A stretch of 38,305 nt of DNA. Origin: Blepharisma japonicum (taxonomy: Eukaryota > Ciliophora > Heterotrichea > Heterotrichida > Blepharismidae). Under the pieces are notes generated by a model. That model was given only the letters and a program-made list of their open reading frames with translations, did not search any database and was not told where the DNA came from. The position numbers and the translations under genes were made by a program. Shown one piece after another: positions 7,159 to 37,242 of the stretch. The stretch is taken from the NCBI GenBank assembly GCA_949751835.1, contig CATKHK010000163.1, positions 1 to 38,305 on the forward strand. Reading direction: 5' to 3'. The first letter of the stretch is position 1. Every line of letters starts with the position of its first letter.

Positions 7159-8256
7159 ATGGAATATTTAGGTGAGGTCGTCATATCAACATCCAAAGAC
7201 GATCCCAATATTTATATTTGGGAGCCTCCCACATTATCACTCCTCGCTCACTTCACCGAAACCATTTCTCTACACAAGCAAAGCTTAGCTCTCTCTAATA
7301 ACACAATAATTGCCCCTCAAGGCCACAAATCATTAATCAATTATTACAGATTTGGCAAAGAAGCTCCAGAAAAAAAATCCTCGACCCTTGAGCAAGTTTC
7401 TGCAATAATCAGCTACAATTGGATGATTCTGGCTGGAACAGTCCAAGGTCAACTTATGCTATGGGACATTAATACAGGGGTGTTAATGCATATATGGAAG
7501 CCTCACTTTAATAAAGTCACTGCCTTACAAATAATCGAAGGGTTTTTTATCAGCGCCAGCGAAGATGCCTCTATACAAGTTTTCGCAGTTTCCCAAGTTT
7601 TGGGTGGAAATTATATGCCTTTTAGGAATTTTTCTCAGCATTTAATGCCTATCACAGATATGGCTGTGTTAGGGACAAGCATTTTTTCATGCTCCAGAGA
7701 TCGGTCATTTAAAGTGTACAGAAATTGGGAATTTTTCTACGAAAAATTCGTAAATTGTCCATTAAATACAATTGAAGTGAGCGAACAAGGGAATAATAAA
7801 CTTTATGTAGCTGGAGATGATGGGAAAGTTTATTTTAATAGAAATAATGAAATTTTAAGCTGGGATATTGACGAAAAGCCTATCACAAATTTAGTCCTCA
7901 CCTCAAATGAACAATTTTTATTAGCCTCAACCGACAAAATTTTTGTTTTAAATCCACAAACTGGCCAAAAAATAAAAACTTTTAAATTACACAAAGGCGA
8001 AGTTGTCAGTTTATTTTGCATACCAAGGCCAAGTGATTTTACAGCCCAAATCCTCACACATCAGCCAATAAAGATCCTTCAAAAACAGCTGGAAGGGGAG
8101 CCTGATACAATAGGATTTGAATTCCAGAGGAAAAAATTCGAGCCAAATGAAGAAAATAAAGAAGAACAAAATATAGTAGCGAATTCTGAAGAAATTGAAA
8201 GGCTTAATCAAATCAATGGGAATTTATATAGACTTTGGATAGAACATTGCATTTAA
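7159..8256 (+). CDS. WD40 protein of the WDR18/IPI3 type
   Basis: 365 residues, one exon. Repeats with WD-type ends are visible (IYIWEPP, LMLWDINTG, SIQVFAVSQ, FKVYRNWEF, KIFVLNPQTG), giving a single propeller over about residues 1-290. A charged C-terminal extension ends in a helix (EEIERLNQINGNLYRLW). The N-terminus and the segment HLMPITDMAVLG...SRDRSFKVYR resemble animal WDR18 (SHHALPITDLHCG...SLDQTVKLWE), the homolog of yeast IPI3, a Rix1-complex subunit in 60S ribosome and ITS2 processing in the nucleus. The C-terminal helix also fits that family. Other WD40 families remain possible. Confidence 0.72.
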   Translation: MEYLGEVVISTSKDDPNIYIWEPPTLSLLAHFTETISLHKQSLALSNNTIIAPQGHKSLINYYRFGKEAPEKKSSTLEQVSAIISYNWMILAGTVQGQLMLWDINTGVLMHIWKPHFNKVTALQIIEGFFISASEDASIQVFAVSQVLGGNYMPFRNFSQHLMPITDMAVLGTSIFSCSRDRSFKVYRNWEFFYEKFVNCPLNTIEVSEQGNNKLYVAGDDGKVYFNRNNEILSWDIDEKPITNLVLTSNEQFLLASTDKIFVLNPQTGQKIKTFKLHKGEVVSLFCIPRPSDFTAQILTHQPIKILQKQLEGEPDTIGFEFQRKKFEPNEENKEEQNIVANSEEIERLNQINGNLYRLWIEHCI

Positions 8257-9635: not shown

Positions 9636-10496
9636 TTAATTCCCTTTTCTCTCTTCTTTATCATCCTGTTCTAGTATCTCTACAAGCGCTCTTTCTTCAG
9701 CCTGGATTTTCGCTTTGTCTTCTTCTGTAGGATCCAGCCTTACGAGCCTATTTCCTTCATTACAAAGCTCGGCTCGTGACACCCTGCCTCTTTTTTCAAT
9801 GTATTTTTTGACAGCTAGAAACTCTTCTTCTGTGATATAAATGTATTTCCCTCTCTCGTCTTTTATGCCATTAATCCATCCACCCTTTTCTAAGTCATCT
9901 AGTCTTGATACAGCTGTTTTTCCGTCCAGGCCAAATTCAGAAGCTAGTTCTTCAACCATCACGACTTTTCTCATTTTAATGAAATCAATGAATTTTTTCA
10001 AATCATACCCAGCTTCTTCAGCTTCTTCTCCTCCTTCATCAACTGCAAACATATCTTTCCATTTTGCATACTCCTCTTCTTCTTTTTTCTGTTTTTCCTC
10101 CTCAATCTTCTTCAGCCTCTCTTCTTCTTCCTTTTCTTTTTCCTCTCTTTCTTTTTCCTTCTCTAAATATTTTGCATTTTTTTCATTCTGCCTCTGCAGC
10201 TTTTCTTCATAAGCTTGTTTTTTCGCTTCTCTCTGTGCTTTTTTCTCTTCTTTTTTCGCTAATTTAGCTGCTTCTCTTCTCGATAACTCCGATTTCTCGT
10301 CATCTTCTTCAGTCTTTTCTTCTGATTCAATCTCTTCTGCATGCTTTTGTCTTAATTTTAAATTCATCCTGCCCTGCGCCTTTTTTTCTACCTCTTGAGG
10401 CTGCACAACTGGTCCTGATTTCTGTTTAAGCGCCCAAAAGCCTATAGCTCCTATCACAATTGTCAATAAAAGGACACTAATAGCTTCAATAATCAT
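9636..10496 (-). CDS. DDRGK1: DDRGK domain protein (UFBP1), UFM1 pathway
   Basis: 286 residues, one exon. An N-terminal membrane anchor (about 5-25, ISVLLLTIVIGAIGFWAL) is followed by a very charged coiled coil (about 40-165, Lys/Glu repeats). The DDRGK winged-helix domain covers about 165-265. Within it, IKDERGKYIYITEEE matches IDDRGKFIYITPEE of animal DDRGK1, and RGRVSRAELCNEGNRL matches RGRVSIAELAQASNSL. DDRGK1/UFBP1 sits in the ER membrane and recruits the UFL1 ligase to UFMylate ribosomal and ER targets. Its presence implies a UFM1 system in this organism. The gene is divergent from the small gene at 10535 across only 38 bp. Confidence 0.93.
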   Translation of the reverse strand: MIIEAISVLLLTIVIGAIGFWALKQKSGPVVQPQEVEKKAQGRMNLKLRQKHAEEIESEEKTEEDDEKSELSRREAAKLAKKEEKKAQREAKKQAYEEKLQRQNEKNAKYLEKEKEREEKEKEEEERLKKIEEEKQKKEEEEYAKWKDMFAVDEGGEEAEEAGYDLKKFIDFIKMRKVVMVEELASEFGLDGKTAVSRLDDLEKGGWINGIKDERGKYIYITEEEFLAVKKYIEKRGRVSRAELCNEGNRLVRLDPTEEDKAKIQAEERALVEILEQDDKEERKGN

Positions 10497-10854: not shown

Positions 10855-12045
10855 CTACATAACCTCGCATTGCTTTTTATTTTTCTTTGCACAAGCTTTT
10901 GAAAAGCATGCATAATTACTTTTTCGCTCTGTTGAGATAAACAGCCTTTGCTCATCGTACCGAATAGTAGGGAACGCTGCGGTTTGTTGGACAAGCTTTA
11001 TGTTGGTTCTTTCGATCTCTTTTTTGAGAGCTGCTAGCTTATTGGCAATTAATTTGATTCTTTTTGTGATTACATAAATTTTGTCCTCTGGCATCAATAT
11101 ATTGAAATATACAGAAAATGCAAGCTTTGGAGACTCATAAAGTTCATCATTTAAAACAGTCATTAGCATGTATTTTTGAGGGACCTCTACCTTAAAAGAA
11201 GACTCATAAGATTTTATTTCTAAAACCGAAGTAGGCTCCGTATTGGCTTGAAGTAGATACTGATACACATCGATATAACAAGTGGCCACTGCCGTTTTTG
11301 GCGGCCTAAACTGCCTTGTGGTGTGTTCATACAGCACCACTTCTGCAGCTTTGTCTTTAAACCCGCTTTCTCTGTATATCTCTTACAATTGTATCGCGGC
11401 ATCTCAAATTGCTTTATTTCCCCTAATGTCAACCACATCAGTTTCAGATGACGAATTTCCTACATTTAGCCTCAGCGAGTACCCTTCAAAGCCTTCTTCA
11501 AATGCTGATTTTAAATCAGTGATTTCTACAAAGCTCGCCAACATATAGACAGGCACCAAATCTTCAATGTTTTCGCTCGTCAGCCTAGTGGCGTCATTTA
11601 TTTCTAAAAATGATAAGCTATTATGGTTTAATAGAGTTTCTATATCTCGGTCTTTTAAGTCAGGGTATGGAAGTGTCAGATTCCTATAGACTCCTAAAGC
11701 AGTATCTAATAATCTTTTCTACATAAAGACTACAGTGAGGGGAGCTTCTTTTAGCAACTTCAGGTACCTTTGGTGCCTCCTTACAAGAGTGTCAGAAAAA
11801 ATTTGGAGAAATTGGTTCCTTATTAGCATTTACAATGATTTACTACCAAATTTGTCGCTTGTAACTTTTTCCCAGATGCGCTTGACTTCTGATAGAGCTT
11901 GCTGGCAGTCTTTGTTGTAAAATCACACAGTAAGGTCTGGGAAAGCGATTTTTAGGTCAGATTTGTCCTCTATGTCAGCTTCATTTAAGGATCGATTGTA
12001 CTCTTTCCGCATTTCTTCAAAGAGTTTTTGGGGAAGGTCTTCCAT
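10855..12045 (-). CDS. Unrecognised protein, 381 aa, with three 15-nt introns
   Basis: Four exons (12045-11834, 11818-11734, 11718-11387, 11371-10855) join to 382 codons ending in TAG, with two TGA codons read as Trp (LTVWFYN, KAIWDAA). Each intron is exactly 15 nt, GT...AG, and removes an in-frame TAA or TAG, which makes the model strong. The protein is soluble and mixed helix/strand, with a C-terminal helical stretch (RIKLIANKLAALKKEIERTN) and a final Cys/Lys-rich tail (CFSKACAKKNKKQC). No signal peptide or membrane segment is visible. I do not recognise a family. Its neighbours end 35 bp (gene at 10535) and 36 bp (LITAF gene) away. Confidence 0.82.
11372..11386 (-). other. 15-nt intron 3 of the gene at 10855-12045
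   Basis: On the minus strand it reads GTAAGAGATATACAG. It removes an in-frame TAA, and splicing gives AAIQLESGF. Confidence 0.85.
11719..11733 (-). other. 15-nt intron 2 of the gene at 10855-12045
   Basis: On the minus strand it reads GTAGTCTTTATGTAG. It removes an in-frame TAG, and the join lies between codons (PLT|KRLLD). Confidence 0.8.
11819..11833 (-). other. 15-nt intron 1 of the gene at 10855-12045
   Basis: On the minus strand it reads GTAAATGCTAATAAG. It contains an in-frame TAA, and splicing gives SKSLNQFLQ. Confidence 0.85.
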
Positions 12046-12081
12046 TTTGTGTATATTTTAGTTATATATTTATTGATTATT

Positions 12082-12552
12082 TTATATAGAAAATGTATTT
12101 CTTGAAGGGATTAAAGTTTTTCTGCATTGACTGCATCTTTTTTTGGAAAGCTGAAATGAGGAGTCAATGAGAGGAAAGAGACAGGCCCCAAACCAGCAAC
12201 CCAGCAGGCACATGCTCCCACAATCAAATCAAGCTGCACTTGTAGGGATTGAGGACTCGACAGGCTTGGTATAAGCTTTGCAGTGGTCACATCTTAATTT
12301 GAACAGAACAGCATGATCAACAGTAGGGGTTTTGGTGAGGGTTGTTGCCATTGTGGCTCGTCGCTTATGGCCTATGACAGGGGTAAAATCAGGATTGCTT
12401 GCTTCATCTGCATTGAAGGAGTCTTTTGATCATTGTGTAAACCTTCTCCCTGTGCTTGGCATTGATATTAGTCCTGGCATAGTAAAAGGGAAGTTATCCA
12501 ATTCTGACTCATCTTCAGAACTCTCAAGCAATGGAAGCAACCCTTCATTCAT
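12082..12552 (-). CDS. LITAF-domain (LITAF/CDIP-type) membrane zinc protein
   Basis: 156 residues, two TGA codons read as Trp (Trp41, Trp108). The C-terminal half is a full LITAF domain: CDHC (88-91), a hydrophobic Cys-rich membrane-inserting stretch (about 107-130, AWFDCGSMCLLGCWFGACLF) and a second CxxC (140-143, CSQC), the two pairs forming a zinc site. The order and spacing match LITAF/SIMPLE proteins, which sit monotopically on late endosomes and lysosomes. The N-terminal 80 residues are disordered and acidic. Trp108 lies at the Trp normally found before the hydrophobic stretch. The long plus-strand open frame over the same bases is a shadow. Confidence 0.92.
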
Positions 12553-12664: not shown

Positions 12665-14290
<1,626 letters not shown>

Positions 14291-17143: not shown

Positions 17144-18211
17144 CTAAATTTCTTCAAATTGATTAGGGACTGGCTGATTTCGAATTCTTTTTATTGAAGA
17201 AGCAAATTTCAGATCTTTTTGCGTTGCTTCGTAGTTCTTAAAAGATGGAGATAAAGTGCAAATCATATAGGTTTTACAGTTCCCTCCTAATGCATTTGAC
17301 AAAATTCTAGTTAACACAGAATCTCTATACCGTATTATTGCGCCTCTACTAGCAGGATTAGCCAATCCTTTCACAACTGTGTGCAGTGCAGCAATAGAAG
17401 TATTGAGTAAGATAACCCATTTCTCAGGAGATACACTTGAAAAAGTTCTTTGAGTTGCAGCAAGGTCTGCAAAAGTAATAAAACTTCTCATTTCTAAAAC
17501 TTTATTTTCTTGAGTAATTCTTTGTTTCAATTCTAATATCAAAATAATATGTGAAACTCCTGCAAGATTATTCATCAGAAATCGGAAGGACCGCTTATTT
17601 GCTAAACCTCCTCTTATCAATACTTGGAATTCATCAGGACTTCTAGCAGGCTGCTTCGAAAGATTTTCGACATAAACTCCATGATCACGATTTTCTCTTA
17701 TTTTCAGCCCATGCTTAGGCCAATTAATTTTAGGGACCAATAAATCATAGATTTCTTCAGCATAAATTTCATACATGCTTATCAATATTTCATTTTCTGG
17801 TAAATTATTTAGCCTTGAAAACAGCTTTTCGCATGTAAAAGGTGCAATTCCTTGGTTATTTCCAATTCCATATATAGAAAACGTCTTACCTGATGCACTC
17901 TGACCATATGAAAAAATGCAGGAATTGTAGCCTTGCAGTAAATTATTTAAAAGTTCGTTACTGTATTCTTCATTTATATCTTCCTGACCTGCAAACTTGC
18001 TGGAAGTTTTCAAACATAACCCATCTTCTCTTTCAACAAAACCATCATGTGACCAGAATGAATTATTAAACAAAAATTGCTCGGATTCAAGACTTTTAGG
18101 ATTTGTAATTATTGTAGATTTACCTTCCATCTCTATGCAGCATTGATTTTCAGCAGATTGAAGCTCAAATCGAATGAATGGTCTAACTCGGACAGAAACA
18201 TTTATATTCAT
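17144..18211 (-). CDS. Divergent, motor-only kinesin
   Basis: 355 residues, ending in TAG. The kinesin fold is clear: NVSVRVRPF at the start, FSYGQSASGKT (P-loop 103-110), EIYAEEIYDLL, YRDSVLTRILSNALGGN (295-311) and a closing LKFASSIKRIRN. The nucleotide switches are degraded. Switch I, normally NxxSSRSH, reads MNNLAGVSH (213-221), and switch II, normally DLAGSE, reads DLAATQ (249-254). No tail, neck coiled coil or cargo domain follows. ATP binding may persist, but hydrolysis or motility is doubtful. It could act as a regulatory or cilia-associated pseudo-motor (inference). The subfamily cannot be assigned. Confidence 0.85.
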   Translation of the reverse strand: MNINVSVRVRPFIRFELQSAENQCCIEMEGKSTIITNPKSLESEQFLFNNSFWSHDGFVEREDGLCLKTSSKFAGQEDINEEYSNELLNNLLQGYNSCIFSYGQSASGKTFSIYGIGNNQGIAPFTCEKLFSRLNNLPENEILISMYEIYAEEIYDLLVPKINWPKHGLKIRENRDHGVYVENLSKQPARSPDEFQVLIRGGLANKRSFRFLMNNLAGVSHIILILELKQRITQENKVLEMRSFITFADLAATQRTFSSVSPEKWVILLNTSIAALHTVVKGLANPASRGAIIRYRDSVLTRILSNALGGNCKTYMICTLSPSFKNYEATQKDLKFASSIKRIRNQPVPNQFEEI

Positions 18212-23994: not shown

Positions 23995-24996
23995 ATGGCA
24001 GAGGTCAAGGCTAAAAAGTATGAGTACTGGGAAATCCTCTGGAAACTAGTTGAAGAGTACCCACAAGTTTTGATCTGTGAAGCCAACAACGTTGGTAGCA
24101 ACCTCTTGGAGGACATCAGAACTAAAATCAGAGGACAAGCTGTCATGCTCTTCGGAAAGAACACACTGATTAGAGCTGGGCTTAAGCACAGAATGGAAGA
24201 GCCAACTCCAGAACAAGAAGACTATGAGAAGAGAAAAGACAAATGGTTCCCATTAGAAAACATCAAAGAGCTTATTCCAAATATCAAAGGCAACGTCAGC
24301 TTAATCTTCTGCAAAGGAGGAATGGACAAGATCCTTGAAATCATTGAAACTTCAACCACTCCAGCAGAAGCTAAAGCTGGCACAGTCTCTCCTTGCAACG
24401 TCTCTGTGCCTTCAGGACTAACCGGTATGGATCCTTCACAGACTGTCTTCTTCCAAGCTCTTAGTGTTCCCACCAAGATCACTAATCGCCAAATTGAAAT
24501 TATCACAAAAGTCCAGGTCATTGAGCAAGGCAAGAAGGTAGGAAACAGTGAAGCTGTCCTCTTGAAAAAGCTCAACATCAAGCCATTCCAATTTGGTCTT
24601 AAAGTAACCAAGGTTTATGATAATGGCTCAGTCTACAATGCTGAAGTCCTCAAATTAGCACCAGATATTGTAATTGAAAAATTCTTAAACGGTGTCAGAA
24701 ACATTGCTGCCATGTCTTTGGAACTTGGAATCCCAACCACAGCCTCAGTGCCTCACTCAATTCTTAATGGATTTAAGAATTTGGTCGGAATTGCAATCGC
24801 TATTAACTATCCATTAAAACAAGCACAAAAAATCATTACTGTCATCAAAGATTCATCAAAACTTGCAGCTCTTCAAGCTGCTTCAGCCACAACTGCCACT
24901 GCTGCCCCTCACGAAACATCTAAGCCTGTAGAAGAAGAGAAAGAAGTTGAGGTCGATTACGATCTTGGAGGAATGTTTGGAGATGAAGACTATTAA
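23995..24996 (+). CDS. RPLP0: 60S acidic ribosomal protein P0 (stalk base)
   Basis: 333 residues, one exon. The L10-type rRNA-binding domain (about 8-110, VLICEANNVGSN...MLFGKNTLIRAGL) is followed by the eukaryote-specific insertion (GLTGMDPSQTVFFQAL...PTKITNRQIEI) and the C-terminal stalk region. P0 binds 28S rRNA and carries the P1/P2 dimers that recruit elongation factors. The C-terminus reads DLGGMFGDEDY instead of the usual acidic peptide ending in GFGLFD. All three Trp codons are TGG and the codons are enriched in C-ending forms, unlike most neighbours, as expected for a highly expressed gene. Confidence 0.97.
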   Translation: MAEVKAKKYEYWEILWKLVEEYPQVLICEANNVGSNLLEDIRTKIRGQAVMLFGKNTLIRAGLKHRMEEPTPEQEDYEKRKDKWFPLENIKELIPNIKGNVSLIFCKGGMDKILEIIETSTTPAEAKAGTVSPCNVSVPSGLTGMDPSQTVFFQALSVPTKITNRQIEIITKVQVIEQGKKVGNSEAVLLKKLNIKPFQFGLKVTKVYDNGSVYNAEVLKLAPDIVIEKFLNGVRNIAAMSLELGIPTTASVPHSILNGFKNLVGIAIAINYPLKQAQKIITVIKDSSKLAALQAASATTATAAPHETSKPVEEEKEVEVDYDLGGMFGDEDY

Positions 24997-25329: not shown

Positions 25330-27273
25330 TTAAAATAATTTGCAACTCTTTCGATCTCCATTTTTGCTAGAAATATCAATACTTTTTAATACTAGAGCTG
25401 CTTCATGTTTATAATTCATTTTTGCTAAGTTAAGAGGTGAGTATCCCTCATTGCAAATAGATGAAACATCTGCGCCTAGACGAATTAGCTCTTTTATAAT
25501 ATTTACATAGCCATTATGTGCAGCTTGATGGAGTGCGGTTTTTCCTGTTTTATCTCTTTTATCAATAATTCCTCCGTGATTATGTAGATAAATAAAAAAA
25601 TCTAGATTTCCGCACGAGGAAGCTGCAAAAATTGCTGTTCAACCAAATTTATCTTCAGCATTTATATCGAATCCTGATTCCACACATTTTTCGAGAACAC
25701 TTTTACAACCGTTTTCAGCGGCAAGCACTATTAATGGCTTATGGCAGTCGTTTTCAACAATTGATTGTTTTAATTCATCATATATTTTACAAGTATTTTT
25801 TCTTAGAATTTCCTTCTCTTTATCTACTATTCCTTTTTCAATAAGAAAATTGATTATTTTTAAAGCTATTTTTTCTTTTTTTTCAATAATATAATGCTGT
25901 GCTGCTTCATGAATTACAAAAAGTTGAAAATAATCAGGATTGTCTAGCATTGTATCAACTATTTTTAAACTTGAGATTCAGTCTCTATTGTGTCTATTGC
26001 ATTCAAAATAAGGAAAATTATTCTTCATAAAGAATTCAAGCATGACTTTCTGCCGATTTCTCAAAGCTGCACACACTGGATGACAAAATTTTTCGTAATC
26101 AAAATTTTTGGGATACAAATTATATTTCAAAAATAACTGAAAAATCAAAATATTACCTGAAGAAGCAGCATAAGTCACTGCTGGCATTTCATCTGGGCAT
26201 GAAACTTTATATGGCCAAATGTCAGCTTTATACTTCAGAAGTACATCCACCAGTGCAACATTTCCAGTTGAGATCGCTGCATTTATAAGCGACATGTTTG
26301 TCTCAGATGAGTGAAAGCACAAATCAAACCCATACCTTATCATTATTTGATAAGCTTTAGCAATCAAATTTTCATTTTTATTAGATTTTAGGAATTTTCA
26401 ACGAGGATAAACTCATGATGTTTTTGAATATATCTTGGTTATTGTTAAATCAATGTCAATTCCTTGCTTAAGTCAATATTCTAAGCATTCTAGATCGGAT
26501 TCATCATTTACTTCGCTAAGAACAGTTTCAATATATTTATTCACAATTTCAATATTATGCCCTTCAAAAAAATTAATAATTTCCGGATCGATATCAGTAA
26601 TAAATAGTCTTCTGAGATTTGATTCATTCAATGCAGTATTTAATTCATTTAAGTCCTCATTTAGCTTGATAATACTGTCACAATTCATTACATCAAGTAG
26701 CTCTAGCTTTTTAAAGTTGCTTACAATAGTTTTAAAATCTTCTTTTGTAGTATATGTGTTCCCAGCATATAATTTCTTTAAATTTGGATAAATTTTTACT
26801 AAAGTATTATATCCAACAGAGCCATACCTATTATTTGAAACTCTAAGTTCTTCAAGAGGAAATTCAAATTCTTCAGGAGGGTTTTTGCTTTGCAAATTAA
26901 CCTTTAGCTGGAAAATTGCTGCCCAAAGCTCATCTAATTTTGTATATGTATTTGTAAGATTGAGCTTCAGTATTCTGGGTTGTGAAGCAAATATTTGCAC
27001 GATGTCAGAGTTAATGAACTTCATATTTCGCAAGTCAAGAGACAGAATCTTTAATGAAAGTGATTTATTATTGCACATTTCGATTACTCTTCACATATCC
27101 ACATTAATGGGCTGAAATTTTCTAATATGAGTACCTTGATATGATACATAAAGATGTGCTTTTTCTATTAGATGCTTTCACCTTTTACAGACAACTGCAA
27201 GCTGTATCAACTCATATATTTGCCCTACAGCCATAAGAATTTCAGAAAGAATTGGATTGGGAAGCTTTTCCAT
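25330..27273 (-). CDS. F-box / leucine-rich repeat / ankyrin repeat protein
   Basis: One 647-residue frame with five TGA codons read as Trp; under the standard code it would look like several small genes. The F-box is at 3-42 (LPNPILSEIL...LAVVCKRWKHLIEKA, with a TGA Trp in VCKRW). LRR-type segments follow (about 70-250, LSLKILSLDLRNMKF, PRILKLNLTNTY, LEELRVSNNRYG). Ankyrin repeats fill about 290-647 (NAAISTGNVALVDVLLKYKAD, GKTALHQAAHNGYVNIIKEL). F-box proteins usually recruit targets to SCF ligases. Here both LRR and ankyrin regions could bind substrates, an unusual combination. A truncated copy of its 5' end lies about 730 bp upstream (27999-28118). Confidence 0.87.
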
Positions 27274-29550: not shown

Positions 29551-32500
29551 ATGGAAAACTCACAGCTTTACATACCACTCCTCTCCAAAGTTTTCCCTGA
29601 AGAGTCCAGAACCACATCATCCACCATAACTTCAAGTTTTGCTCGCTTTCTTTCAAAAGCCCTTGAGCCAGAATTGCATTCTATGAAAACTGCAATTTTT
29701 GATATAAATTCTAGCTTTGGGAAAATTCTCCCAAATTACCTTCATTGCCCATACGGGATAGTTGCTATGGAAAAGCTCCCTGATGAAACCCATTTTTTGG
29801 CTGCCACACATGAGGGCTATGCCTTGATATTTGATATAAAGACTGGGCACATCGATGACAAAAAAATCTGTGAAAGGTTAAATGATGTTAAAGCATTTCC
29901 TTTTGCAAGGATTTCAGTATTTTTAGGAGATTCATCGATATTTACACTTACTGTACCTAGTTTTAACATAGGAGAGATTAAATTTGAGTCTTGTGTAAAA
30001 TCTATTGCACAGTCAGCTGACAAAAAAGAGCTTTATATTCTATTAGAAAATGAACTAATAAAACTCGAGCCACCTGATTTTAAAAGTCAACAAATAGTGA
30101 TGACTGGGGAAAATTATTGAAGTTTGTGCATGTCTCGAAATAAGAAATTTGCAATTGCAAATAAAGAAGGAAAACTAACTATATATGACTCAGAATTTAA
30201 TAAAATTGGGGAATCTCAATTAAGAAATGAAACAATTGTGAAAATGTTTTCTGCTTCTGAAAGTAAAGTAGTGACTATTAATTGCAGGAAAAAAATCATC
30301 AAAGTTATAGAGATAAGTTCTTTGGAAATTATTTCAGAAATCAAAACTAAGGATTCAGCTAGCTGTGTCGCTATAACAGATGATGAAAAGACATTAATTT
30401 ATTCAGAAAATTCTAGCATTATTTTTTGAAATATCCAAGCATGTAAAATTGTGGGAAAAATTAATGCGCATGAAGATAGAATTAGATATTTAGGATTAAG
30501 CCTAAATAATGATTGCATCTATTCATGCGGAATTGATGGGAAATTTTCTATACTTAAATTTCCAGAGTTCTCGACTGAAAAAACCAAAAAAGCAAATAAA
30601 TTTGAAGTAAATCCATGAAATGGAGATATTATAATTCATACGAAAAATAAATTAAAACTGTGGGATTTTGACAAAGATTTCGATAAAGAGCTTGATAAAT
30701 TAGAAAATTTCAATAGAAAATCTGATATATTAAATATCAGAATCGTAAAAAAAAATATTATTATTTATTTATATAGTAATTGTGTATGCAAAATCAACAA
30801 TTCTACAAACGAAAAGAAAATTTTTATATTAAGCGGAGATAGGCATGATAGTTTTATTTGTGCAGAAATCAGCCCTGATGGAAAATTTTTAGCCACTGGT
30901 GGCCATTCTCAAAAACTTTGCTTGTGGGATATAGATACAATGACTAAGCAAAAAGAATTCAAAGGGCATGACAATTATATACACTCCATATTATTTTTGC
31001 AGAACTCAAACATCATTTCTTCTGGCTGTGCTACTGGAGTTATAAGGTTTTGGGACATTGAAACTGAAAAAGAAGTAATTTCCGCCCTTAAATCCCACGA
31101 CAAAGTTATTGAAGTGCTAAAAGTTATCAAAGACGAATCAATCTTAATTGTTGGTAGCAATGATGGAATAGTAACAATATGAAAATGAAGGGAAAAATTG
31201 TTATTAAATACTATCAATCCAAATGGTGGAAATATAAAAGATATTTATATAAGCCCAGATGAGCGTTCAATGATCACTTGTTCATATCATGGGAAAATTG
31301 CTTTTTGGTGCTTGGAAACGTATTCTCAATTATTTTTCTATGATACAAAAACTTTCATATGAAATCTCAGGCTGACAGATGATAATAAACATTTGATGTA
31401 TGTCGATTCAAGAACCAATATAATGGAGGGGAAAATTCACAACAAAAATTGTGAAATTGTAATAAAGCTAAATCCACTTATTTCTGATATTGTTCAAGCA
31501 TGCGGCAATGGGAATAATTATGATTATATGAAATATGTAAGCAACATTATTTCAAATAGAAGACTAGCTTATGATCCAGATATGGATAATTGGATTATTT
31601 TACCCTATAAAATCAATACACTTCATCTTTATTCCTATTTTAACCGTCCTGCTCATCTTAAAGCTGCATTATCAAACCAAGCTTCACTATTTAACAACAT
31701 CTACAACCAAAACCCATTATCATTATCAGCATCAAAAGGTTTTGAAAGCTGCCTAAACGTTATAATTGCCTCAATGGGAAAATATTTATCACATAATCCT
31801 TATTCATTTTCAAGCATAAGTAATTCTACGCTTATAGTGCTAAACAAATCAGGATACTCCACAATAGACAATTTTTATAGATTTGCTTTTAAAAAATATG
31901 AAGGCTATAGAACAACTAAATTCTGCGATGACTCAGTTAATACGCCAATTTTCAGACACTCTAGCGACCCTATACCAGTCGAATCTGACTTTCTAAGCCC
32001 CACTGACAAAAAACAGGAAGAAAAACCTATAAAATTTATGCATTCTTTAATTGCTTGTGGGCTAAGTTTTGGCACAAAAGATAGCATTGATTTTTTAAAC
32101 AGTATCAGAGATTCTCCAAATTCAAGAATTTTAGTCACAAAATTCATCCAGTCACTGCTTGACTATAAATGAAATAAATTGAAATGGATGATGTACACAC
32201 AAGCCCTTCTTTATTTAATATTTATGCTGCTACTATCAATATATGTGCTTGATTTTATTGATGCGAAACAGCAAACTATTGTGCTTTTATCATTCAGCAC
32301 TCTTTTAACGTTCTATGAGGTGTATCAATTTTTTGCTTCCCCTCGTGACTATATCAAAGATATATGAAATTATGTTGATTTGATTAGATCATATTTTACA
32401 ATTAATTATGCAATTTTTATATGGTGTGACTACGACTCAGTCACAGCCCATGATTTCTTAGCATACCTAGTCATTGTGTCATGGCTTAGAGGAATAGCGT

Positions 32501-33171
32501 ATTTTAGGCTATTTAAAAATACAAGATATATGGTCAATTTGCTAACAGAAGTTGTCAAAGATATGTTTTCATTCCTAATCCTTTTGTTTTATTCAACAGC
32601 TGCATTTTCATTTATTTTTACAGTTCTTGATGATGAAGGATGAAGCTATTTGAAATATTTGACTATTTCTTATAGAATTGATTTAGGAGATTTTGATACA
32701 AGCTATATGAATTCAATGCAGTGACTTTTCTTTGTGTTGGCGACTATGTCAAATATGATTATTATGTTGAATTTATTGATTTCCATAATGTCAATCACTT
32801 TGGATAGAGTTCAAGAATTTTCAGAAATTGCAGATAAAAAGGAATTAGTAGGCATGATTATCGAGCTAGAAACGTTATTATATTGGAGAAGAAAACTTGA
32901 AGGGACTCATTATTTTCATCTATGCCAGGAAGATAAAGCAGATGATAAAGAAAAAAATATGGCAACAAGGGTGCATGCGATTAAGAGAAACCTAAAGACA
33001 TTTCAGAATGAAACTAGGCATGAAATTAATGAAGTTGTTGGAGAAGTTAGAGGGCTCAGAGAGGTTGTAATGGAGATGAATGAAACTTTGAAAAGCTTAG
33101 TTGAAGAGAAGAATAGACAGAAAGGAATGATAAATGAATCATTGCTATCAGTTGAAGAAGTAAAATTTTAG
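29551..33171 (+). CDS. WD40-repeat / TRP-like ion channel fusion protein, 1206 aa
   Basis: One frame from ATG 29551 to TAG with ten TGA codons read as Trp; no in-frame TAA or TAG, no intron. The N-terminal part (about 40-640) is WD40: LCLWDIDTMTKQKEFKGHDN (about 457-476), GVIRFWDIETEKEV and GKIAFWCLETY are clear blades, enough for two propellers. A linker follows (about 640-870) with ankyrin-like pieces (PLSLSASKGFESCLNVII). Six membrane segments follow: S1 about 882-903, S2 908-927, S3 944-959, S4 970-990, S5 1001-1027, S6 1057-1079. A pore loop lies between S5 and S6, and S6 ends NLLISIMSITLDRVQE, like TRP channels. The C-terminal tail is coiled coil. Likely a cation channel gated through its cytosolic propeller (inference). 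Confidence 0.85.
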
Positions 33172-36231: not shown

Positions 36232-37242
36232 ATGGATGCCAAGCATCTGGCGCAACAGCTCAAAGAAAACTCCAGGAAAATTCTTTTGATTGCGTCTCTA
36301 GCCGCCTTAAGTTACGTTTGATATAGATCCTTTTTGTCAAATCGAAAAGCAAGCCATTTGCTTGTTCTCAGAGACAAGCTAATCCTTTCCAAAATCAGTC
36401 TAAAATTTCCTCCTCTTAATGAAATGAAAATTTACTCTTTCTCCGAATTCCAAAAAGGAAAAACCCCTAGAACTCAAGGTTTTAACATTGGAAAATTGCT
36501 TAATTCCACAAATCCTGGTGTTCTACGCTATGCAGCAAATGTAATGTACTCTCACAGAACAACATCAACTTCAAAAATATTGGACACCATTGATGGTATA
36601 AAAGAAGGAATTTTATATGTTGCCGACTTACAAACCCAAGGAATTGGCAGAACAGGTTCATGGGTATCTGACCCAGGCTCCCTTTTATATTCCTACATAT
36701 TTTCATGTCGTGCACAGCATGCAGTTATGATTCAACTTATTGTTCCACTGGCGATTATCAGAGCAATAGTTAAAATTGGGGCAAGAAAAGGAGTTTCCAA
36801 AGAGAGGCTTGGCTATGTTAAATTAAAGTGGCCAAACGACATTTTATATAGAGATGTAAAAATTGCTGGAATTCTGGTAAATTCAAAAAGTGAAGGAAAA
36901 GATTTTGTGATGAATATTGGGATTGGAATCAACTGTGACAATGCTAAGCCAACTACATGCTTGAATCTTGAATACGGTGGAATTTTCACAAGGGAAGATT
37001 TAATTACTGAATATCTGGCAAATTTTTCTGAGATTTGTGATTTATTAGAGCAAAACGGTGGATATGAAATTATTAGGAATGAATATAAATCGAATTGGTA
37101 TCATTATAATAAGATTGTAGATCTTCCTAATCAGAAAGTTAAAGGAAAATTAATAGATATTACAGAAGATGGGGTTTTGCATGTTGAAGATGATGAAGGA
37201 ATTAGATATCAAGTTCATTCAAGAGAAGAAATTATTTTTTAA
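36232..37242 (+). CDS. Biotin-protein ligase (holocarboxylase synthetase type) with an N-terminal anchor
   Basis: 336 residues from ATG 36232, one TGA as Trp (SYVWYRS). Residues 15-35 are hydrophobic (KILLIASLAALSYVWYRSFL) with positive flanks, a membrane anchor or an import signal. The catalytic domain shows TTSTSKILD (substrate loop), QGIGRTGSW (biotinyl-AMP loop, in place of GRGRxGxxW), VKLKWPNDI (about 196-204) and KIAGILV, then the C-terminal SH3-like domain (KGKLIDITEDGVLHVED). It attaches biotin to carboxylases through biotinyl-AMP. The loop differs from the usual GRGRxG by carrying IGRTG. Confidence 0.9.

Follow-up and report, generated by a model that had tools for sequence, protein, structure and literature searches.

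A predicted family of WD40-bearing TRP-like channels in the ciliate Blepharisma japonicum, with a probable Ca2+-permeable pore

The classification of TRP channels follows the modules at their cytosolic N-terminus, and known members usually carry ankyrin repeats, MHR or no N-terminal repeats. The present analysis concerns a window of 38,305 nucleotides from Blepharisma japonicum (the whole of contig CATKHK010000163.1, assembly GCA_949751835.1), in which one open frame encodes both a WD40 region and a TRP-like channel with six predicted helices. The closest described systems are channels of the TRPV/TRPM/TRPA group (TRPV3, TRPV6, Inactive, TRPM8 and the structure 6pw4, which we take to be Chlamydomonas TRP1). 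The window protein resembles these in its predicted six-helix domain, its pre-S1 linker, its S6 core with the helix predicted to follow, its ankyrin-like region before S1 and its coiled-coil-like tail, and it shares the LGD filter of Inactive. However, it has a long N-terminal WD40 region and only about two weak ankyrin-like repeats. No MHR or LSDAT domain, as found in TRPM, occurred among the Pfam families listed (25 of 38; for the paralogs, 25 of 60 by member count). The protein falls into no clear TRP subfamily, given that the whole channel scores best with TRPM8 and the pore with Inactive, PKD2L1 and TRPV3.

Two further groups are relevant for comparison. The pore and LGDF filter align with those of the polycystin PKD2L1 (E 2e-6), and weak PKD_channel matches were observed in 7 of 23 family members, but the alignment leaves no room in the window family for the long extracellular S1-S2 domain of PKD2L1. 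Polycystin membership was rejected on the closeness of S1 and S2 (alignment and hydropathy) and on the genome-wide search with PF08016, whose 35 matches overlap no locus of the WD40-channel family. WD40 proteins (PkwA, WDR3, EML and others) share repeats of about 42 residues with this family; unlike them, the window protein is fused to a channel, and none of the best 60 of 559 matches in the Protein Data Bank (PDB) is a channel.

A search of the full-text literature, which covered titles and abstract openings and few subscription papers or preprints and is therefore weak evidence, found no description of a WD40-TRP fusion in ciliates. Protist TRP channels are named without WD40 in the text seen of a review of eukaryotic excitability (PMC7935092), the term 'WD40' is absent from the main text of a survey of protozoan mechanosensitive channels (PMC3681921), and both 'channel' and 'WD40' are absent from the main text of the B. 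stoltei genome paper (PMC9942806). Similar proteins may already sit in public ciliate proteomes under automatic names.

Reading frame, genetic code and genome setting

With UGA read as Trp (translation table 4), positions 29551 to 33171 of the forward strand form the single frame of 1206 codons that the initial annotation had described, open to a terminal TAG. The frame contains 10 TGA, 9 TGG, no TAA and one TAG codon, the last being the stop. Because ten codons are TGA (W190, 293, 356, 544, 546, 604, 874, 939, 1031 and 1058), the standard code splits the frame into eleven pieces, where about ten had been predicted. The ciliate code of table 6 was also tried and rejected, as the gene is fragmented under it. 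The assignment of UGA to Trp is supported by the paralogs: six of the ten positions (293, 544, 546, 874, 939 and 1058) are Trp in the majority of the 29 further members in the family alignment, encoded there by TGG as well as TGA. W874 is Trp in all 29, in 20 via TGG, and W546 is the slimmest of the six (16 of 29). The remaining four positions are variable, with Trp in none of the 29 other members. Across all 30 family frames there are 199 TGA and 387 TGG codons; these frames were cut at TAA and TAG, and the lack of both codons within them is thus uninformative. Chance does not explain a frame of this length, which is conserved in paralogs.

The frame shows no apparent 15-nt intron: it has 12 GT-N11-AG matches, none of which, by eye, coincides with the five-residue insertions that only the window protein has in the family alignment. 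Across the window, 15- and 16-nt intron-like patterns, themselves a guess, were not in excess over shuffled sequence, and tRNA and Rfam scans gave no match. The paper on the B. stoltei ATCC 30299 genome describes 41 Mb in 64 telomere-to-telomere sequences, 66% AT, UGA as Trp, tiny introns mostly of 15 and 16 bp and the telomere repeat CCCTAACA (PMC9942806). The assembly used here comprises 45.2 Mb in 224 contigs, and three tandem copies of CCCTAACA match it 168 times (reversed control, 0), the listed matches lying near base 1 of contigs or at the far end (C5, C7). Telomere repeat and code both mark the genome as that of a Blepharisma. The initial annotation had expected automatic annotation to miss the gene; this is not supported, as the B. 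stoltei project reports UGA as Trp and used a tool of its own for gene prediction (PMC9942806).

The same window contains ordinary eukaryotic genes: a DDRGK protein (9636-10496, -), a katanin p60-like AAA ATPase (12665-14290, +), a kinesin motor (17144-18211, -), a ribosomal protein of L10/P0 type (23995-24996, +) and a biotin/lipoate ligase (36232-37242, +). It also encodes an F-box and ankyrin-repeat protein of 647 aa with seven TGA codons (25330-27273, -) and a separate second WD40 protein of 365 aa (7159-8256, +), whose Pfam matches include no channel domain.

Domain architecture of the predicted protein

The features of the gene, with the evidence for each, are as follows.

29551..33171 (+), complete coding sequence, 1206 aa (table 4 translation; paralog Trp; N-terminal motif)
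29551..29586 (+), short PLL-containing motif at the N-terminus, aa 1-12 (paralog comparison)
29728..30660 (+), first predicted propeller region with degenerate WD40 repeats, about aa 60-370 (family blade HMM; alignment to regular paralogs)
30661..31470 (+), second predicted propeller region, about aa 371-640, four clear blades (PF00400; PDB; blade HMM)
31471..32160 (+), conserved domain of ankyrin-like repeats (about aa 685-745) plus linker (to aa 870) (PDB profile; Ank_2; conserved sites)
32161..32796 (+), predicted pre-S1 and S1-S6 channel domain, about aa 871-1082 (PF00520; PDB profile; hydropathy; conservation)
32683..32694 (+), pore selectivity-filter motif LGDF, aa 1045-1048 (alignment to solved structures; family columns)
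32797..32895 (+), post-S6 segment resembling a TRP helix, about aa 1083-1115 (conservation; alignment with Inactive after its S6)
33016..33141 (+), C-terminal tail of coiled-coil-like character, aa 1156-1197 (heptad score against shuffles; no proline)

The N-terminal motif is common to paralogs and the ATG at 29551 is therefore supported: of 14 full-length paralogs, 9 have PLL close to the N-terminus, two more have PMI or PLF variants and three have no such motif. As a guess, it could be a sorting or docking signal.

The WD40 part of the window protein scores 77.6 bits with PF00400 (cut-off 27), and its PDB matches are PkwA and other WD40 chains from E 2e-31. A family blade model, built up from the highly regular repeats of paralog L047, finds six blades above 12 bits, two in the first propeller region (aa 190-213 and 271-295) and four in the second (437-461, 477-504, 523-546 and 562-589), with weak or negative units between them; the degenerate remainder of the first half was placed by alignment to more regular paralogs. 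The same model gives 13, 16, 14 and 16 WD40 units, some low-scoring, in L042, L043, L044 and L047, which fits two propellers. The WD40 region is thus predicted to form about two propellers, of which four to six blades are clear in the window protein. Locus L047 itself (C66:220000-226200) encodes roughly 15 highly regular 42-residue WD40 repeats, and its channel lacks S5, the pore and S6.

Between the propellers and the membrane part lies a conserved domain of about 230 residues, in which P685, P799, G841 and S845 are present in 30 of 30 aligned members. A profile of this domain from 19 sequences gave 18 PDB matches with E ≤ 10, of which 17 are ankyrin proteins (13 identified by name and 4 that we take to be such), the best at a non-significant E of 0.076. 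Pfam Ank_2 was reached in 4 of 19 members, the window protein not among them, and a two-sequence profile gave two PDB matches (E 0.51 and 1.3), neither of them ankyrin. The domain is weakly assigned as ankyrin-like. As it precedes the membrane part, WD40 seems to have been added ahead of something like the usual TRP N-terminus.

The channel domain begins with a pre-S1 segment whose K873-W874 pair is kept in 30 of 30 members. PF00520 (Ion_trans) scores a modest 28.5 bits in the window protein (cut-off 25), aligned over positions 13-237 of 241, and is found at E ≤ 1 in 21 of 23 family members. Family-averaged hydropathy places S1, S2, S4, S5 and S6 above the chosen threshold and S3 below it. When a linker-channel profile of 23 sequences was compared with the PDB, the best 60 of 138 matches were all TRP channels, led by TRPM8 (6.2e-10) and including the TRPM2 chanzyme, 6pw4 ('TRP-like ion channel'), TRPV and TRPA1. 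Similarly, the best 60 of 146 matches of a pore profile of 17 sequences belong to the TRP superfamily, among them Inactive (1.3e-7), PKD2L1, TRPV3 and NOMPC. The NCBIfam model TIGR00870 'trp' was matched at E ≤ 10 in 22 of 23 members (best 8e-8); on the window member it gives a non-significant E of 8.6 and 4.3 bits, far under the cut-off (498.75). Homology of the predicted S1-S6 to the TRP superfamily is therefore carried by the family profile and not by TIGR00870 on the window sequence alone.

In the PDB profile search the LGDF filter aligns with LGDY of Inactive and LGDF of PKD2L1, channels that pass Ca2+. The filter has the form x-G-D in 16 of 23 members and is exactly LGD in 6; L025, L026, L027 and L038 have LGN, LGE, LGE and LGT, and the filters of L033, L034 and L035 are neither x-G-D nor of the LG type. 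At the end of S6 the window protein reads SIMSITLDR, where most paralogs read SI(M/I)G(D/N)TF. In the TRP-helix-like segment E1105 is kept in 29 and E1107 in 30 of 30 members. The tail of the window protein has no proline, and its heptad score was equalled in 3 of 300 shuffles; in 12 of 15 sequences tested, at most 14 of 300 shuffles did as well, with L002, L025 and L044 failing.

The initial annotation, which had reported WD40 blades and a TRP-like channel in one polypeptide, was thus right about the two domains and their shared frame, as well as about UGA as Trp and the ciliate origin. Its description of both as clear stands as far as WD40 and Ion_trans exceed their cut-offs, but the first half of the WD40 region is degenerate, six blades exceed 12 bits and S3 is below threshold. 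It had also missed the ankyrin-like/linker domain and about 80 related loci.

The gene family and the evolution of its two halves

Searching the genome with the linker-channel sequence gave 87 stretches, which correspond to 80 loci; 74 are at least 900 nt long and 24 lie within 15 kb of another copy. Upstream of the channel and in frame with it, PF00400 was found (E ≤ 0.001) in all 51 distinct loci examined out of the 80, namely 14 of 14 full-length paralogs, 17 of 17 flanks and 20 of 20 further flanks; in 19 of these last 20 flanks the frame ran without a stop across all 533 upstream codons. With dozens of such genes in the genome, the fusion appears to be genuine and widely used and not an accident, and the simplest reading would be one old fusion followed by duplication. 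Relatives were also sought in viral contigs (51 pattern matches) and in bacterial and archaeal genomes (248 pattern matches), and none was confirmed.

Some loci have features of their own. L032 (C196) is interrupted between 11183-12154 and 12729-13139 and L036 (C31) between 445984-446958 and 447901-448311, in both by an insert in the linker; the inserts of these close paralogs (about 0.6 and 0.9 kb) are related, rich in stops and similarly placed. They may stem from a single old insertion, whether retained eliminated sequence, transposon remnant or pseudogene. L033 (C12, 2869-3717, +) has a cysteine-rich C-terminal extension that matches the zinc-binding domain C1_2 at 27.3 bits (cut-off 26), and L029 (C1, 1-1500, -) has a very long coiled-coil-like tail in a frame of 1777 aa, with an apolipoprotein-like helix score below cut-off. 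Elsewhere in the genome, Ion_trans domains occur in dense runs about 1 kb apart (C16:129119-146011, C71:204628-225821, C95, C26, C51, C159 and C6), a pattern that multi-domain voltage-gated channel genes in tandem arrays would produce.

The distances among paralogs in the WD40 half and in the channel half are strongly correlated over 30 loci (Mantel r 0.83), a value reached in none of 2000 permutations (maximum 0.24); this set excluded L047, whose channel is incomplete, and partial loci such as L012, L016, L018, L032, L036, L040 and L045. The nearest neighbour is identical by the two halves in only 15 of the 30 loci. On these distances, the halves have evidently been inherited together and have co-evolved.

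In the pair L004/L005, dN/dS indicates purifying selection on both halves: the two WD40 parts have 0.34 and 0.41, the linker has 0.16 and the channel 0.21; the C-terminal tail of this pair gave 3.7 over 74 codons with very few synonymous changes. In all 11 pairs computed, which are non-independent in being drawn from seven genes, dN/dS was higher in propeller 2 (0.26-1.13) than in the membrane part (0.13-0.23), for example 1.13 against 0.13 in L010/L013. Three pairs lie outside this regional count (L006/L021, L031/L035 and L004/L008), and L006/L021, computed by halves, gave 0.17 and then 0.29, opposite to the trend. The interrupted pair L032/L036 gave 0.48 and 0.78 by halves. In most of the few close pairs tested, the propeller thus changes faster than the membrane part. 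However, cytosolic parts of channels often change faster than membrane parts, and faster propeller change need not mean ligand diversification. Given this, the non-independence of the pairs and the contrary case of L006/L021, sensor diversification is a suggestion and not a result.

Proposed mechanism, rival explanations and significance

We consider it likely that these genes encode a family of Ca2+-permeable TRP-like channels that are gated or placed by diversified cytosolic propellers. The typical chain would consist of a WD40 propeller region, a short ankyrin-like/linker domain, a six-helix channel, a TRP-like helix and a coiled-coil-like tail, and four such chains would form a tetramer around one pore, for which Ca2+ permeability is proposed because the filter is acidic. 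Arranged as a skirt on the cytosolic side, the propellers would bind a partner (a peptide, a modified protein, or cytoskeleton or membrane cargo), and the ankyrin/linker domain together with the TRP helix would pass binding or pulling to the S6 gate. The initial annotation had likewise suggested that the propeller may gate or scaffold the channel. Close paralogs have a near-identical pore and faster-changing propellers, and different inputs would therefore feed one type of Ca2+ signal. A more speculative extension, which we regard as doubtful, is a lineage-specific chemosensory or signal-receiving repertoire of some 70-80 channel genes in a single cell, in which the Ca2+ pore would be strongly conserved and the WD40 sensors inside the cell diversified. 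In such a family of receptor-channels a cytosolic beta-propeller would be the part that varies.

The chief rival, and a plausible one even if we do not favour it, is that the propeller is a targeting or anchoring module for cilia, cortex microtubules or the contractile vacuole, without gating, such that paralogs would differ in location. WD40 propellers mostly act as scaffolds, the N-terminal PLL resembles a sorting signal, and fast-changing propellers would fit different partners; however, the conserved ankyrin/linker domain with its invariant residues looks like a coupling element, as in TRPs. Anchoring is also partly compatible with the reading in which propellers gate or place the channel.

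It is improbable that the membrane domain is non-conducting in part of the family, perhaps including the window member, and merely anchors a WD40 scaffold. Pores have been lost or changed in some relatives (L047 as described above; L041, L042 and L044 lack the GD motif), and not all members therefore need conduct. The low Ion_trans score of the window member points the same way, but that member still has S1-S6, its LGDF filter and the core of S6, and the membrane part is under purifying selection by the dN/dS of the 11 pairs of relatives, the window gene itself being too distant for such a comparison. Finally, a reading of two adjacent genes as one, or an assembly artefact, is hardly credible: the same order and open frame recur on many contigs, the halves co-evolve, and the two-gene reading was rejected on the presence of WD40 upstream in 51 of 51 loci examined.

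On the reading of channels gated or placed by propellers, a WD40 module in an expanded and conserved TRP-like family would add a new type to the TRP channels. Mechanically activated currents are noted in Stentor and other ciliates in the survey cited above (PMC3681921), and the family would supply concrete candidates for the unassigned channels behind the sensory currents of heterotrich ciliates. It would also be a case of one protein family in which a single type of pore is coupled to many potential inputs from within the cell.
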